Positions 23,329 through 29,967 of a stretch of 64,000 bases of DNA are shown one piece after another; position 1 is the stretch's first letter; each line of letters opens with the position of its first letter. The notes under the pieces were generated by a model that was not told the origin of the DNA, did no database searches, and was given only the letters and a program-made list of their open reading frames with translations. This DNA is from Phycisphaerales bacterium (GTDB taxonomy: Bacteria; Planctomycetota; Phycisphaerae; Phycisphaerales; UBA1924), in assembly GCA_023382935.1 (NCBI GenBank), contig JAHDXL010000002.1, positions 1 to 64,000 on the forward strand, read 5' to 3'. Both the position numbers and the translations under genes were made by a program.

Positions 23329-26300
23329 TCATCCGCCCAGAGCGTCGAGCAGGCCAGGGAAATTGTCCTCTTCCTGCTCGTTCTGGATCAGGATCGTCGG
23401 CTTGATGAGGATGAGAAGCGTCTGCTCTTCCTTCGAGTCGATGCGGTTGGAGAAGAACCGGCTGAGAATCGGAATCTTGCTCAGGACGGGCACCCCCGTC
23501 TCGACCTGCAGTTCCGAAACCAGCCGCTGCCCGCCGAGCATGATCGTGCCCTGATCGGGGACCGTCACGGTGGTGCTGACACCGGTGACCGCCACGATGG
23601 GCTGTTGAATCACGCCCCGGGCCGTGGCCGCATCGCCGCCGCCCAAGCCGCCGCCTCCGGCGGCACCGCCCGAAGTCTCGTACGGCAGCAGGTCCACCAA
23701 CTGCGACACGTTGGCTACCACGTTGAGCGTGACGTAACGCCGATCGGCCGAAACCACGCCGTCCACCAGCAGCGTCACGCCGTCGTTGATCACGTCGATC
23801 ACCGGGTCGAAGGCCACCGAGCCCTGACTGGTCACCGGCTCCAGATCGGACACATAGGCCCGCTGGCTGGTGACGAAGATGTTGGCTGTCTGTCCGTTGG
23901 TGAACGTCAGCCGCGGAGCATTCAGGCTCACCGAACGCCGATCGGCCTGCGTCGCCTCGATCAGGAAGTCAACCTGAATGTCATCAAGGAACTGCCCAGA
24001 CACGCCCAACGCCGGCGAGGCGCCCAGGATCTGGCTGGCAAACGTGCTGCCCTGGCTGAGCAGGTTGGTCAGGTCAAACGAATTCTGCGACCCGCTGATG
24101 AGCGACCAGTTGTCGCCCTGCGTGCCGGGCGAGAACACCGGTACAAAGTCACCGTCTTCGCCCGGGTTGCCCACCGGACCGATCGTCCCGTCACCGTCGA
24201 GGTCGAAGTTGCCCGAACCCACGCGACGACGCAGCCGCCCAGTCTCGGGGTCGAAGTAATCGGAAGGCAGCAAACTGGGGTCCAGCGTACGAGCAATCTG
24301 GAACTCGTTGTTGTTTGCGTTGAAGTACACGTCGAGGTCGAAGCCGATTTGCTCGAAGTAGTCCTGCGACACCAGCAGGAAACGGGCCTCGACGCTGATC
24401 TGCAGCGCCCGGACCTCGCGCAGTTTGCGCAGCAGCCCGATGATCGCCCGGTGGTTGCGCGGTGTGTTGGTGATGATGAGGTTGCCGTTGAACTCTCGGA
24501 TCGAACCGGTCTCCCCGCCGTTCTCCTGCCACCCGTCGTAGTCGACATTCGAGGTGATGATGTCGATGATCTCGTCGATCATTTCATCGCGGGTGCGTCG
24601 CGTGCCCTGCTGCTGTCCGGGGCCCTGCCCGCCGGTCTGGGTGAAGGGGCTGCGTCCGCCGCCACCGCCGCCACCGCCGCCCCGTCCGCCGCCGGTATTC
24701 TGGAACGCCGAGTTGAGGTCGAACTGCGGCGCGTTGGTGTAGTCGGGAATGTCGATCAGCAGGTCGCGGATGTCGTAGATCTCGAGCAGCGTGTTCCGCC
24801 GCAGTACCTCGTCTGAAGCGATCGTCAGGATCCCGTCATTCACCGCCCAGCCCGCGGGGATGTCAGGGTCTGACACCTTGGCCAGAACGCGGTCGAGCAC
24901 CGTCTCAAGCGTCACGTTGGTCAGTTTGAGCGTCACCGGACTTTCTCGGTCAACGCCGATCACCTCCAGCGACTCCCAGTCCACGTCCATATTCAACCCG
25001 GAGACCTGCTCGTAGAACTGCAGCACGTCCCCGAAGGCGTGGCCGGAGAAGTTCACGGGAATCCGCTTTTCCTGCATCGTCGCCAGCACCGCGCGGTTCA
25101 CCGCCGATTCGGAAAACTGCATCGGCTCGCCGCGCTTGAAACTGATCTGCGGCCAGTCCGACGGATAGCCGATGATCGTCTCGGGCGCGATCAGTGCCTC
25201 TTCGTTCTGGTTGGTCTGCCAGGCGTAACTCAGCGCCTTGTCACGCTGAATCGTGTAGTACTTGCGGTAGATCTTGGTGTCTTCCAGCACGTCACGCAGC
25301 AGCAGGCCGGCCGGATTCAGAGGATCCAGCGCCAGGATCTGGTCCACCACCTGCAGCGCTTCGTCGTACTTCTGCTCCAACTGCAACGCGCGAACACGCG
25401 AAATGTTCTCGTTGATCAGGCGCTGCCGCTCCGCCCGCTGCTCGTTGTCACGCATCGACTGGAGCCGACGCAGTTCGGCTTCGATTCGCTCGCGTTCGGC
25501 GATCTCCGCTGAACTCCGGGCCTGCTCAACCTGAGAAAGCCAGCGATCAGCCTGGTCGAGCATCCCCTGGTATTCGGCCTCCGGAAGCACGTTGCGGTGC
25601 TGCTGGGCCGTCAGGCGGGCCTCCCCGCCGGAAAGCGCGGCCGCGGAGAAATTGCCCGACGCCAGCGCGCTCTTCAACTGCTCCATCTGGCTGGCGTACA
25701 ACGCCCTGGCTCGCTCGCGGATCACCTCCAGCGATTGCTGCGTCTCGTCGAGCACGTTGGCGCCCGGCTGACGCCCCAACTGCAGGGCCGCGCTCGTCGC
25801 CTGCTGCTCCACATGGTCCAGGTCCGCCGCCGACAGGAACCCGCTGAACTGCGACAGCAGCCGGTTGTACTTCGTCTGCGCCTCGGCGTACCGCCCGTCG
25901 CGAAAGGCCTGATCGGCTTCCGCCAGAATCCGCATCGCCTCGTTCCGCTGCGACTCCTGGATCGGGTCCGTCGCCGGCTGCGAGCCCGGCTGTGCCGCCG
26001 GCTGCCCTTCCTGCAGCAGCCAGTCCGTCTTCTCGTCCATCGCCGGGAACGAACCGAGGCTCACGTCGCCCGTGGCCAACGCCATGTCGGACAGTTTGCC
26101 GCAGTACTCTTCCAGAAGCCGCCGCTCACCGGCACTCAACTCCACCCCCGACATCAGCACGCCGTCCAGTTTCATCTTTGCCCGCCCGTAGTCGCCGGCG
26201 GCAAAGTCATCCACGGCTGTGCTCAGGTCCATCTTGATCCGCGGCGTCAGGTCGGACCGACGCTGCCTGACCATCTCCCCGATCGTCTGGGCAGACATCC

Positions 26301-26709
26301 TCTCGCCTTCCGCCGCCGCCCTCGACACCAGCACGCTGTTGGCGTGCGCTTCGGCTGAACGAAGATCGCCGATGATCAGCGCCGCCTCGGCCTTCTGCAG
26401 ACTCACCTCCGTGGGAGACAGGTTGCGCAGCCCCAGTTCGATCTGTCCAATCAGTTTGAACAGGCGACGGTGCTCCTCATCGCTCAGCGTCGCACGCTGC
26501 GACGTCAGCACGGTGTCGATCATGTTGCGAGCCTGGATCAACTTGCCGCCTGCAGCCAGTTCGGCCGCCCGATCCAACGCCCGAGCCGGTGAAACCGAAA
26601 CGCTGTCCGGTTCTGCCGCCCCGGCCGCAAACGTCATCGTGCTCGGCAACGCGAACGCAGCCGCCGCAACCAGAAGCGATCGAACCGTTCTGTATCCCAT
26701 GCTTCGCAT
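23329..26709 (-). CDS. secretin (GspD/PilQ superfamily) with long helical N-terminus
   Basis: An outer-membrane channel protein of about 1126 residues. The start at 26709 is chosen because GGAG lies six bases upstream; an ATG at 26721 would add four residues. A signal peptide is followed by ~420 residues of repeat-like helices (AEADQAFRDGRYAEAQTKYNR is TPR-like) and a charged coiled-coil stretch (~380-440). A short N-domain follows (FGDVLQFYEQVSGLNMDVDW, TLETVLDRVL), then a Gly-rich tract with nine consecutive glycines, and the secretin core. The C-terminus has VPDQGTIMLGGQ and GVPVLSKIPILSRFF, diagnostic of secretins. No other type II secretion or type IV pilus gene is adjacent, so its machine is unknown. 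Confidence 0.88.
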   Translation of the reverse strand: MRSMGYRTVRSLLVAAAAFALPSTMTFAAGAAEPDSVSVSPARALDRAAELAAGGKLIQARNMIDTVLTSQRATLSDEEHRRLFKLIGQIELGLRNLSPTEVSLQKAEAALIIGDLRSAEAHANSVLVSRAAAEGERMSAQTIGEMVRQRRSDLTPRIKMDLSTAVDDFAAGDYGRAKMKLDGVLMSGVELSAGERRLLEEYCGKLSDMALATGDVSLGSFPAMDEKTDWLLQEGQPAAQPGSQPATDPIQESQRNEAMRILAEADQAFRDGRYAEAQTKYNRLLSQFSGFLSAADLDHVEQQATSAALQLGRQPGANVLDETQQSLEVIRERARALYASQMEQLKSALASGNFSAAALSGGEARLTAQQHRNVLPEAEYQGMLDQADRWLSQVEQARSSAEIAERERIEAELRRLQSMRDNEQRAERQRLINENISRVRALQLEQKYDEALQVVDQILALDPLNPAGLLLRDVLEDTKIYRKYYTIQRDKALSYAWQTNQNEEALIAPETIIGYPSDWPQISFKRGEPMQFSESAVNRAVLATMQEKRIPVNFSGHAFGDVLQFYEQVSGLNMDVDWESLEVIGVDRESPVTLKLTNVTLETVLDRVLAKVSDPDIPAGWAVNDGILTIASDEVLRRNTLLEIYDIRDLLIDIPDYTNAPQFDLNSAFQNTGGGRGGGGGGGGGRSPFTQTGGQGPGQQQGTRRTRDEMIDEIIDIITSNVDYDGWQENGGETGSIREFNGNLIITNTPRNHRAIIGLLRKLREVRALQISVEARFLLVSQDYFEQIGFDLDVYFNANNNEFQIARTLDPSLLPSDYFDPETGRLRRRVGSGNFDLDGDGTIGPVGNPGEDGDFVPVFSPGTQGDNWSLISGSQNSFDLTNLLSQGSTFASQILGASPALGVSGQFLDDIQVDFLIEATQADRRSVSLNAPRLTFTNGQTANIFVTSQRAYVSDLEPVTSQGSVAFDPVIDVINDGVTLLVDGVVSADRRYVTLNVVANVSQLVDLLPYETSGGAAGGGGLGGGDAATARGVIQQPIVAVTGVSTTVTVPDQGTIMLGGQRLVSELQVETGVPVLSKIPILSRFFSNRIDSKEEQTLLILIKPTILIQNEQEEDNFPGLLDALGG

Positions 26710-27070
26710 CTCGTTCTCCATCTGAGATGGCCGACTGATTCGATGGTTTCACCCTTCGACTTGTCCCCCGGGGCGACTTTTCCGATCGTCCCGGCCTCGA
26801 CTCTCTCCGCTTCGCCGGGGAGAGATTCGCAGTGTAGCGCCGCCCCTTCGTCCGGACAGCGATCTGCCTAAGCCATTGCTGTCGTTCCACGTCTTCGTCT
26901 GTGCTGGCGCGACCTCGTTCCCACATTTGCGGAAGATACGGTGTGGGGCCAAACTTCGCAAATCGTTGTCGCGCTTGCCCGGGCCTTCCTGGAGCGGGTG
27001 TGGGCCCGCGTCCAAAGCCCACCGTGTTCCTCCGCTTCGATCCGCCTGCCCGCTCGGTTCCCCATTTTCC
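26710..27070. other. intergenic region upstream of the secretin gene
   Basis: About 360 bases with no convincing gene on either strand. Read on the minus strand, GCTACACT around 26835 could be an extended -10 element for the secretin gene, but no clear -35 is visible. Confidence 0.4.
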
Positions 27071-28096
27071 TTAACCAGCCTCCAGCCACCGCGCATGGAT
27101 CACCCTTGGAGTGCGGGCACGAACCGCCACCCCGACATCCACCCCGCTGCCAGCCAATGCCTCCCGCAGACGGTCATCCCCCAGCCGATCCAGCGCAAGA
27201 ACGGCCACATCCAGCCACTCGCTACCCTCTTCCCCAGGCGCCTCGGGCTCTTCTTCTCCGCATGCACTCATCGCAAGGGCCTCGGCTTGGGAGAGATTCC
27301 CCGCAAAAAGGAAAATCTCCCGGTAACGGGGCGATCCCGGCTCGTCCTGATCGCATCGGACCACCGCACGCCACGCCGTCAGCCCCAATTCGCGTCCCTC
27401 GTCGTCGACATTCGACTCCGGGTCGATGTTCAGCGTCAGACGCCACTCCTGCCGCAGATGCCCGACGATCTCCTCCGGCCCCAGCGCGCTGACGCTGCCC
27501 TCGGGAATCACCAGCACCGAGCGGTGTTCATGCGCCACCGTGTCCACGCCGGCCGACTCGTTCGTCTGCTCCAAGTCGAACGCTTCCAACAACTTGTCGA
27601 CCTTCGGCTTCAGGTCCGGCTCCACCCGGATCGTCAGGATCTTGTGCTCATCCACAAACAGATAGAAGAATGGCTCTTCCGACATGGCGCCAAACCCGCA
27701 CATGCCGTCCTCGTAAAAGAACCCCTCAAACTGGCGGGTCGCGTCGAGCAGTTGGTCCATCCCCAACTGCTCATACGAGATGTATGGATCGATCTCCCTG
27801 AACTCATCGTGCCCGATGAAGTCCAGAATCGGGAAAACCCGCGGGGGCATCAACGCCAGCAACTGGAGCAACAGCGCCGGAAGACGCTCGACCGAAATCA
27901 CGATGTCGTACACATATCGATCCGGCCACTCCTCGAGGTCTGAGCCATCCTCGGCGCCGTCCGCGGCTTCGAACTCAACGGCATACCCCTGCGTCGGATC
28001 GATCGGCTCAACGGGATAAACCCCCAGGGGGAACCGCATGGCTCCAACCTGAACACGCTCCAGAGCCGGGTCGATGACGCAGGTGAACATGCTCAT
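27071..28096 (-). CDS. hypothetical protein, divergent from coaX
   Basis: An acidic protein of about 341 residues that I do not recognise. It has no signal peptide or membrane helix. Segments such as IGHDEFREIDPYISYEQLGMDQ and EEPFFYLFVDEHKILTIRVEPD suggest an alpha/beta globular protein. The C-terminal ~90 residues hold an Asp/Glu-rich stretch (GEEEPEAPGEEGSEW). Start choice is uncertain: M at 28096 or 28090, with only weak ribosome sites; the frame continues to 28147 but that would abut the coaX start. Codon use is like its neighbours. Confidence 0.6.
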   Translation of the reverse strand: MSMFTCVIDPALERVQVGAMRFPLGVYPVEPIDPTQGYAVEFEAADGAEDGSDLEEWPDRYVYDIVISVERLPALLLQLLALMPPRVFPILDFIGHDEFREIDPYISYEQLGMDQLLDATRQFEGFFYEDGMCGFGAMSEEPFFYLFVDEHKILTIRVEPDLKPKVDKLLEAFDLEQTNESAGVDTVAHEHRSVLVIPEGSVSALGPEEIVGHLRQEWRLTLNIDPESNVDDEGRELGLTAWRAVVRCDQDEPGSPRYREIFLFAGNLSQAEALAMSACGEEEPEAPGEEGSEWLDVAVLALDRLGDDRLREALAGSGVDVGVAVRARTPRVIHARWLEAG

Positions 28097-28149
28097 TCCA
28101 TCGAGTCTCGTGCAGTGTAGTCTTTCGTTCAGGAACCTACCGTCCACCC

Positions 28150-28941
28150 ATGGATCATCCCAATCGCGTGCTGACCATATCCGTCGGAAACACCCGTACC
28201 CGTGCGGGCGTCTTTGAGGGAGGGGAACTGGTCGAGTCGGGGGCTTCGGTCAACGCCGACGAGCCGGAACTGCGCGGTCTGCTCACCCGGCTCCTGGGCC
28301 AGCACGCCTCGCACACCTCCGCCGCCTTGGCGTCGGTCAACGAGCCGATGGCCGAGCGGGTGGCGGGCATGGTCGGTGAACTGACGCGGGGGATATTCCC
28401 CGCTCGTCTTGGGCGTGACGTGGCTATCCCCATTCGGCACTCGCTCGACCAGTCGGCCACGGTGGGGCAGGACCGTTGGCTCAACGCCATCGCCGCCTTT
28501 GCGCGCACGAAACAGGCATGTGTAATCGTCGATGCGGGCACGGCCGTCACGGTCGACTTCATCGACGGCGAGGGCACCTTTCACGGAGGAGTCATCTTTC
28601 CGGGTCTGCGCATGATGCTTCGGGCGATGCACGAGCACACCGCCGCACTGCCGAGCATCGACTTCATTGCGCCTGACGCCGCGCGGGGCCCTCTGGGCAA
28701 GGACACCGCCCACGCCATGACGCTGGGCGTGCTGGCGGCGCTGCGCGGAGGCGTGCGGGCACAGGTCGAACGGTGCGCCGACTACTACGGAGCCTACCCG
28801 CAGGTTATCGCCACGGGTGGTGATGCGCCGCTGCTTGAGGAAGATGATGGCGTCATTGAGCACATCGTGCCCGATCTGACGTTGATCGGGCTGCACGAGT
28901 GCGTCATGCGGCAATCGGCCGAGAGCGAAAGCGGCGATTGA
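28150..28941 (+). CDS. coaX: type III pantothenate kinase
   Basis: Phosphorylates pantothenate, the first committed step of CoA synthesis. It is 263 residues, the normal size. The N-terminal ISVGNTRTRAGVF is the ASKHA phosphate-1 loop, GQDRWLN and VIVDAGTAVTVDFID (~124-138) are family signatures, and GGVIFPGLRMM follows. Only a few dozen bases separate it from the divergent hypothetical gene. Confidence 0.95.
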   Translation: MDHPNRVLTISVGNTRTRAGVFEGGELVESGASVNADEPELRGLLTRLLGQHASHTSAALASVNEPMAERVAGMVGELTRGIFPARLGRDVAIPIRHSLDQSATVGQDRWLNAIAAFARTKQACVIVDAGTAVTVDFIDGEGTFHGGVIFPGLRMMLRAMHEHTAALPSIDFIAPDAARGPLGKDTAHAMTLGVLAALRGGVRAQVERCADYYGAYPQVIATGGDAPLLEEDDGVIEHIVPDLTLIGLHECVMRQSAESESGD

Positions 28942-29001
28942 CGCAAGGAACACGCGAGCCTTTCGCGAGTCGTGAGCGCGAAGGGTTCGATCGAGTCCCG
29001 C

Positions 29002-29967
29002 ATGAGCGTTTCCCGGTCCATCCAGACTCCCCGTCACGCGCCGGGCGCGATCGCCGTGGTGCGGCTGGCCGGTGAGGACTTGGATAACTGCCTGCGTGGC
29101 CTCGGCCTCGGACCCGCGCCTGTCGGCTCCGCACGCCTGGTGGACATTCTCGGCGTCGATCGCGGACTGGTGGTGCGATGGTCGCCCGGTGTGGCCGACC
29201 TGTGCGTCCACGGCGGGCTGGGCGTGCTCGACGCTCTGGATGCACGCCTGCGAGAGCACGGGCTGAGCGAACAAACGGAGTTGGATTGGCGGAACGAAAC
29301 AAACTGGCGCGCCGCGTGGCCCGAGGCGAGAGATGAAATCGAGGCCCGGATGCTGGAGGCGCTGTCCCAGGCCGTCAGTCCGCGCGCGGTCGACGCGCTG
29401 CTTGCCCAGCCGGCGCGGTGGCGGGCCCGTCGCCAGGGCGACCTGCTCGCTGACGGCACGGTGCTGCGGCGACTGCTGCACGCGCCGCTGGTGGTGATAT
29501 GGGGCGCGCCGAACATCGGCAAATCGACCTTGCTCAACGCGCTGGCGCGGGAGCAGGTGGGGCTGGTGGCCGACATGCCCGGCACCACGCGCGACGCGGT
29601 GGGGGCCACGGTGCTGCTCGACGGATTGGCGGTGCGCATGCTCGACGCCCCTGGCATCGCCGCGGGAGGCGCGGGGAGCGAGCCGGATCCACTCGTAGCC
29701 GATGCGGTGTCCATCGCGCGCGAACTCGTGGCCGAGGCCGACCTGGTGCTCTGCTGCGGAGACGCGACGCACGAGCCGCTGCCGATCGAACAGGCCCACT
29801 TGCGCGTGGCCCTGCGTGCCGACGCGGCCACGCCCGCGTGGAGTCACGACGCGCTGGTCTCCGGTCACACGGGACAGGGACTGAGCGCCCTTGCGCTGCT
29901 GATCCGCCAGACGCTCGTGCCCGATGCGGCGATGAAGGATGAGAGGGCGTGGAAGTTCTGGGAGTGA
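29002..29967 (+). CDS. short, degenerate MnmE-like GTPase
   Basis: About 321 residues, against ~450 for MnmE, the GTPase that modifies the wobble uridine of some tRNAs. ATG at 29002 aligns with the usual MnmE N-terminus (GAIAVVRLAG); a GTG at 28972 would extend it. An N-terminal TrmE-like part ends with VHGGLGVLDALDARL. Helices follow, then a G domain: G1 GAPNIGKST (~170-178), G2 DMPGTTRD, G3 DAPG, and a G5-like SGHTGQGLSAL. Two key elements are missing. The G4 NKxD is replaced by ALRAD. The C-terminal helical segment with the catalytic CxGK motif is absent; the protein ends KFWE. It may be a diverged paralogue with another role. Whether a full mnmE exists elsewhere cannot be seen. Confidence 0.8.
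   Translation: MSVSRSIQTPRHAPGAIAVVRLAGEDLDNCLRGLGLGPAPVGSARLVDILGVDRGLVVRWSPGVADLCVHGGLGVLDALDARLREHGLSEQTELDWRNETNWRAAWPEARDEIEARMLEALSQAVSPRAVDALLAQPARWRARRQGDLLADGTVLRRLLHAPLVVIWGAPNIGKSTLLNALAREQVGLVADMPGTTRDAVGATVLLDGLAVRMLDAPGIAAGGAGSEPDPLVADAVSIARELVAEADLVLCCGDATHEPLPIEQAHLRVALRADAATPAWSHDALVSGHTGQGLSALALLIRQTLVPDAAMKDERAWKFWE

Follow-up and report, generated by a model that had tools for sequence, protein, structure and literature searches.

The window analyzed here, a stretch of 64,000 nucleotides from a Phycisphaerales bacterium (contig JAHDXL010000002.1, positions 1 to 64,000), contains an open reading frame with an MnmE-like N-terminus and GTPase motifs but with ALRAD in place of NKxD and no C-terminal CxGK. 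Is its product a truncated MnmE, or a paralogue with a part of its own to play? A sequence-only reading had favored a paralogue with changed nucleotide preference or a non-tRNA role, or else a very reduced MnmE. We addressed the question by comparing the gene with the full-length MnmE of its own genome, with its homologues across the phylum and with published MnmE structures.

The short gene and its genomic setting

The open reading frame at 29002-29967 is real and under purifying selection, with a dN/dS of 0.18 against the nearest homologue over 317 codons; a GTG at 28972, 5' of 29002, is a possible alternative start. The motifs were as first described (G1 GAPNIGKS, G2 PGTTRD, G3 DAPG, LRAD and a G5-like VSGHTGQG), and CxGK is absent from this protein and from 126/126 short homologues. 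A Pfam search matched MMR_HSR1 (58 bits) and gave no match to TrmE_N. The claimed TrmE-like N-terminus is supported as a fold, though below the reach of Pfam: of the 361 positions of a family profile, 3-352 could be aligned to crystal chains of MnmE (E 4.8e-80), with a gap falling exactly at the Y71/TGED loop. The AlphaFold model (mean pLDDT 78.7) is good for the N-domain and G domain and poor for the linker at residues 120-149. In the PDB it matches MnmE chains best, but since the model was built on MnmE rows the likeness of its N-domain is not independent. The helical domain PF12631 was matched in P0002 and not in the window's protein (P0001). The features of the locus are collected in Table 1.

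Table 1. Features of the short gene and its upstream neighbor, in window coordinates.
Feature	Position	Strand	Evidence
coaX, type III pantothenate kinase	28150..28941	+	PF03309, 153 bits; directly 5' of the short gene
Short MnmE paralogue	29002..29967	+	321 aa plus stop; translation; homologue in 144/151 order genomes; dN/dS 0.18
TrmE/MnmE-type N-terminal domain, residues 1-88, without Y71/TGED loop	29002..29265	+	profile alignment to 1xzp_A; model pLDDT ~78-94
D53, counterpart of E. coli D60	29158..29160	+	kept in 114/126 short; 0/27 planctomycete full-length MnmE
H70, counterpart of TmMnmE H82 (adjacent-subunit folate pocket contact)	29209..29211	+	invariant in short family; trans role from excerpts of PMC12397908
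Shortened helical linker, residues 89-154, MnmE helical domain remnant	29266..29463	+	low-confidence helices (model); conserved PEA and SPxAxDxLLxQP motifs
G1 P-loop GAPNIGKS with K+-site Asn (N171)	29503..29526	+	Asn and Lys in 126/126 short homologues
G2/K-loop PGTTRD, MnmE G-domain dimer interface residues	29578..29595	+	T251 and D253 126/126, R252 123, T250 111; interface role from excerpts of PMC3695501
G3 DAPG	29644..29655	+	Asp 126/126
V232 at catalytic Glu E282 position	29695..29697	+	Glu in 96/126 short homologues, 21/44 in the window's family
G4 position LRAD, Asp kept	29812..29823	+	alignment of short homologues
C-terminal W-x-F signature (W317, F319), replaces C-terminal helices in the order	29950..29958	+	Trp in 91/97 order sequences, 0/29 outside

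The source genome (3.72 Mb, 95.4% complete) carries both canonical genes elsewhere, as the sequence-only reading had suggested looking for: a separate full-length MnmE of 473 aa ending in FCIGK (L001:1261-2682, G000:C1), and a single MnmG at 681.8 bits, above cut-off. This MnmE falls below the NCBIfam cut-off of TIGR00450 (124.2 vs 252.6 bits), so that automatic annotation may miss it. The short protein misses the same cut-off (61.2 vs 252.6 bits) and that of NF003661 (93.2 vs 380 bits), a weak test of membership here because the genome's true MnmE fails TIGR00450 as well. The full-length MnmE has TKAD in place of NKxD, and the gene upstream of it is presumably yidC.

A truncated MnmE was ruled out as an explanation by the separate full-length mnmE and by a truncation common to the relatives. 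No homologue with a downstream CxGK fragment turned up among the 126 open frames examined, and the paralogue reading stands.

The genomic linkage of the short gene is to coaX and not to mnmE or mnmG. In the window it starts 60 bases 3' of coaX. Among 126 short-homologue loci, 100 have coaX upstream in the same orientation, often with an overlap of a few bases, and none has it on the opposite strand; in the other 26, some of them with short flanking sequence, it was not seen. Such an arrangement would suit a protein working with CoaX in CoA/pantothenate metabolism, independently of MnmE. However, some lineages (G001, G007, G017 and G235 of f50) did not show the linkage, an extra membrane-protein gene intervenes in others, and co-loss with MnmG (see below) would go unexplained; we regard this role as very unlikely.

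The intervening gene, found in families f5, f6 and a few others, encodes a small membrane-protein-like product of ~150-190 aa with the motifs YKKxW and NFPxGxPM (L045, L049, L051, L052, L140 and similar loci) and is absent in the window. On the minus strand, a gene at 27071-28147 is divergent from coaX in a position conserved in many loci of the window's family; a Pfam search of its span 27071-28090 gave no match. Further upstream (23329-26721, minus strand) lies a large protein of 1130 aa which, by its look, we take to be secretin-like.

Spread and ancestry of the short family

Matches to the window protein at 1e-5 were obtained in 151/151 genomes of the order. Following a re-test of 18 weakly matching genomes with a profile, we read the short gene as present in 144/151, some copies being contig-end fragments. 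It was not found in the other seven (G098, G131, G030, G066, G091, G133 and G145), where only MnmE- or Der-like matches occurred and several assemblies are fragmented. Outside the order, short homologues of ~300-510 aa are present in many families of Planctomycetota, and 14 columns are invariant across 44 phylum-wide short sequences. Since the window's branch has lost both the Lys of NKxD and the catalytic Glu, one might see in the short gene the decaying remnant of an mnmE duplication, but this breadth, these invariant columns and the low dN/dS make such a remnant extremely improbable.

The trees separate the two kinds of protein. A quick tree (88 rows) put 41 short proteins in one clade (SH-aLRT 100) and 27 planctomycete full-length MnmE in another (97); in a careful tree of 56 rows, restricted to MnmE rows, the same holds for 22 short (100/100) and 16 full-length proteins (100/99). 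Neither tree places any particular other MnmE nearest the short clade. The short protein is a member of an old family of MnmE paralogues spread through Planctomycetota. One of its members, L197 of family f50, has the look of an intermediate, its TGED loop being still in place.

We also scanned named genomes. Among the matches listed, 76/80 loci encode proteins that end in CxGK and score above 200 against the profile (L063, L078, L135 and L137 were dropped from the set). These are mainly ordinary MnmE, and absence of the short family outside the phylum is not demonstrable from them. The listed loci led to 22 genomes, 21 of them with a single match covering the N-domain, and G365 has a second, partial match starting at profile position 95.

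The GTPase domain

The lack of NKxD had been read as a possible change of nucleotide preference. Asn and Lys are indeed changed in the window, but a degraded form of the motif remains, with its Asp kept as in 125/126 short homologues. The Asn is found in 24/25 sequences of families f5/f6, 19/29 outside the order, 4/21 in f2 and 0/44 in f1, the window's family. The Lys position is occupied by Arg in 42/44 of f1 and by Lys in 28/29 outside the order, the exchange being almost confined to f1. The window's family thus has xRxD at G4, where relatives retain NKxD; a milder form of the change, Thr at the Asn position (TKxD), occurs in 17/27 planctomycete full-length MnmE. Judged from these alignments, loss of NKxD is late, with ALRAD the endpoint of a change that came about gradually within a single family. 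Of the two losses on which homologues were to be compared, that of CxGK is shared and that of NKxD is not. Because the Asp survives and relatives keep NKxD, there is no support for a change in nucleotide specificity.

The short protein carries the P-loop Asn and the K-loop TTRD, marks of a K+-dependent, dimerization-activated GTPase. Excerpts of a study of MnmE (PMC3695501) name T250, T251, R252 and D253 as residues of its G-domain dimer interface, and this interface is kept in the short family at the frequencies given in Table 1. The same excerpts report that GTPase activity and tRNA modification in E. coli are abolished by E282A and not by E282D. The catalytic Glu is kept in most short homologues and in about half of the window's family, the window's own copy having Val. 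Since the Glu has been lost, the short chain of the window's lineage probably binds GTP but hydrolyzes it poorly. Sharing of the catalytic Glu between short and full-length chains is not clean, with 2/26 pairs acidic in neither chain.

Folate-pocket residues, MnmG and a candidate heterodimer

An unexpected pattern concerns residues that act across the MnmE dimer. In homodimeric MnmE, R20 and Y71 serve the chain's own folate pocket, and A15 and H82 serve the neighbor's. According to excerpts of a 2025 MnmE-MnmG cryo-EM report (PMC12397908), the adjacent subunit supplies A15 and H82 in TmMnmE, and only one subunit of the dimer docks on MnmG. MnmE of other phyla (76 among the matches listed) has R20 in 97% and H82 in 97%, all on one chain. 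In Planctomycetota these residues are reciprocally lost. R20 is present in 45/45 full-length MnmE vs 21/135 short proteins, and H82 in 1/45 full-length MnmE (1/27 and 0/18) vs 135/135 short proteins (126 and 9). The full-length counts combine 27 rows with 18 new ones, a nineteenth new row being without the region; the sole His in this column is that of L181, and an earlier alignment had given 0/27. Seven more short proteins, read by eye, also have the His.

Other positions follow suit. An aromatic residue at Y71 is found in 73/76 MnmE of other phyla (among the matches listed), 26/27 planctomycete full-length MnmE (and 13/18 further rows) and 1/126 short proteins, while Ala or Gly at A15 is found in 120/126 short vs ~5/27 full-length proteins. 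The Asp at the E. coli D60 column is kept in 71/76 of the listed matches from other phyla and shows the split given in Table 1. The 27 full-length rows were those ending in GK out of 30 candidates, so that their count of CxGK is by selection. Short-only columns make up 2/13 of the highly conserved columns of the N-domain; that count alone is weak, and the argument rests on the location of H82. Conservation of the His and the GA could, however, reflect needs of the fold only.

The second line of evidence is co-occurrence with MnmG. We used one fixed draw of 118 genomes of the phylum, each at least 90% complete, of which 96 have MnmG. A2 matches at 1e-40 were present in 87/118 genomes, one of them (G288) MnmG-negative; of the 86 that are MnmG-positive, three (G294, G252 and G341) have full-length MnmE only. 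A looser search added seven short genes (G171, G181, G188, G202, G222, G233 and G274). The short gene is thereby found in 90/96 MnmG-positive vs 1/22 MnmG-negative genomes (Fisher p 6e-17, uncorrected for kinship), many of the 90 calls being based on match span and open-frame length and not on a tree. It was not found in six MnmG-positive genomes (G153, G177, G252, G270, G294 and G341), among which G252 is 99% complete and has an MnmE that is likewise without H82. The one MnmG-negative genome with the short gene, G288, is in 460 contigs. Of the other 21 MnmG-negative genomes, 11 gave only Der-like matches to the short profile at 1e-20, and 10 of these 11 are also without full-length MnmE; the remaining 10 were tested at 1e-40 only. 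Most negatives belong to families f21, f27, f35, f64, f68, f72 and f74, with G208 and G334 as negatives within families that otherwise carry the genes. Ten genomes, all at least 90% complete, seem to be without MnmE, MnmG and the short paralogue together (G162, G168, G176, G190, G200, G208, G211, G220, G229 and G264). Both the joint loss of the short gene, MnmE and MnmG and the reciprocal half-site pattern speak against the non-tRNA role proposed earlier.

How might two such proteins work together? Full-length and short chain seem to share one active site, divided between them. The short protein is probably the short subunit of a heterodimeric MnmE, in which it would complete the folate pocket and pair G domains while the full-length chain docks MnmG. 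An ancestral homodimeric MnmE would have duplicated early in Planctomycetota. The full-length copy would have retained what works in cis, namely R20 and the Y71 loop together with the hinge helix and the CxGK-bearing C-terminal helix that visits MnmG, and shed A15 and H82, which serve the neighbor's pocket; the short copy would have kept A15 and H82, as well as the K+-dependent dimer interface of the G domain, and shed the rest. Each dimer would then have one complete folate pocket and one arm for docking MnmG, and the short chain, besides completing the pocket, would trigger the GTPase of its partner through G-domain pairing.

We weighed two other roles for the short protein. It could be a regulator or brake that heterodimerizes with full-length MnmE and is dispensable for catalysis: without CxGK it cannot do the chemistry, and 18/44 of the window's family have lost the catalytic Glu (Asp counted as kept). 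This would leave unexplained why the phylum's full-length MnmE has lost H82, without which it seems incapable of forming the pocket on its own, and we consider such a regulator quite unlikely. A homodimeric GTPase, acting in its own right in the MnmEG pathway or in tRNA/ribosome quality control, is an unlikely alternative as well. A complete G1-G3 set and a G domain that also resembles Der and Era would fit such an enzyme, but its own folate pocket would be incomplete (R20 mostly gone, Y71 and CxGK gone), its invariant H82 would be without reason, and genomes without MnmG hardly ever have the short gene.

Returning to the heterodimer, we give a somewhat better than even chance to its wider form, that in Planctomycetota an obligate heterodimer replaced homodimeric MnmE, with half-sites split between a chain for chemistry and MnmG docking and a chain only for pocket completion and G-domain pairing, and that in the window's family the latter partner is becoming non-hydrolyzing with relaxed guanine recognition. 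The heterodimer is most open to doubt on two counts: six MnmG-positive genomes, G252 in particular, in which the short gene was not found, and a His that may serve only the fold. If the heterodimer is real, the two halves would sit on separate genes and each could be mutated on its own, which bears on why the MnmE dimer puts one subunit on MnmG and on which residues act across the dimer. Annotation of mnmE in Planctomycetota would also be missing a needed partner, and both genes together would predict the lineages able to make cmnm5U34.

Finally, we compared the family with known systems. Excerpts of a report on Tuwongella immobilis (PMC8567305) describe two MnmE paralogues, both found with MnmG in proteome fraction S3, which is in line with the heterodimer; beyond these, our literature search found nothing on short or heterodimeric MnmE, and we infer that the second Tuwongella MnmE belongs to the same family as the short paralogue. 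Der/EngA and Era have a related G domain, but no TrmE-type N-domain, and are separated from the short family by differences in HMM score. Homodimeric MnmE (TrmE; PDB 1xzp/1xzq, 3geh, 3gee, 9hip/9hiq) shares with the short protein the HGG N-domain, the K+-site Asn, the K-loop and DxxG, and its alignment to the profile extends over 350 positions. In contrast to it, the short protein has neither CxGK and the C-terminal helices nor the Y71/TGED loop, has usually lost R20 and occurs alongside a full-length MnmE. A further comparison is with planctomycete full-length MnmE (such as the one in the source genome), which has a common MnmE origin and lives in the same genomes, yet ends in FCIGK, keeps R20 and Y71, is without H82 and D60 and forms a separate clade.
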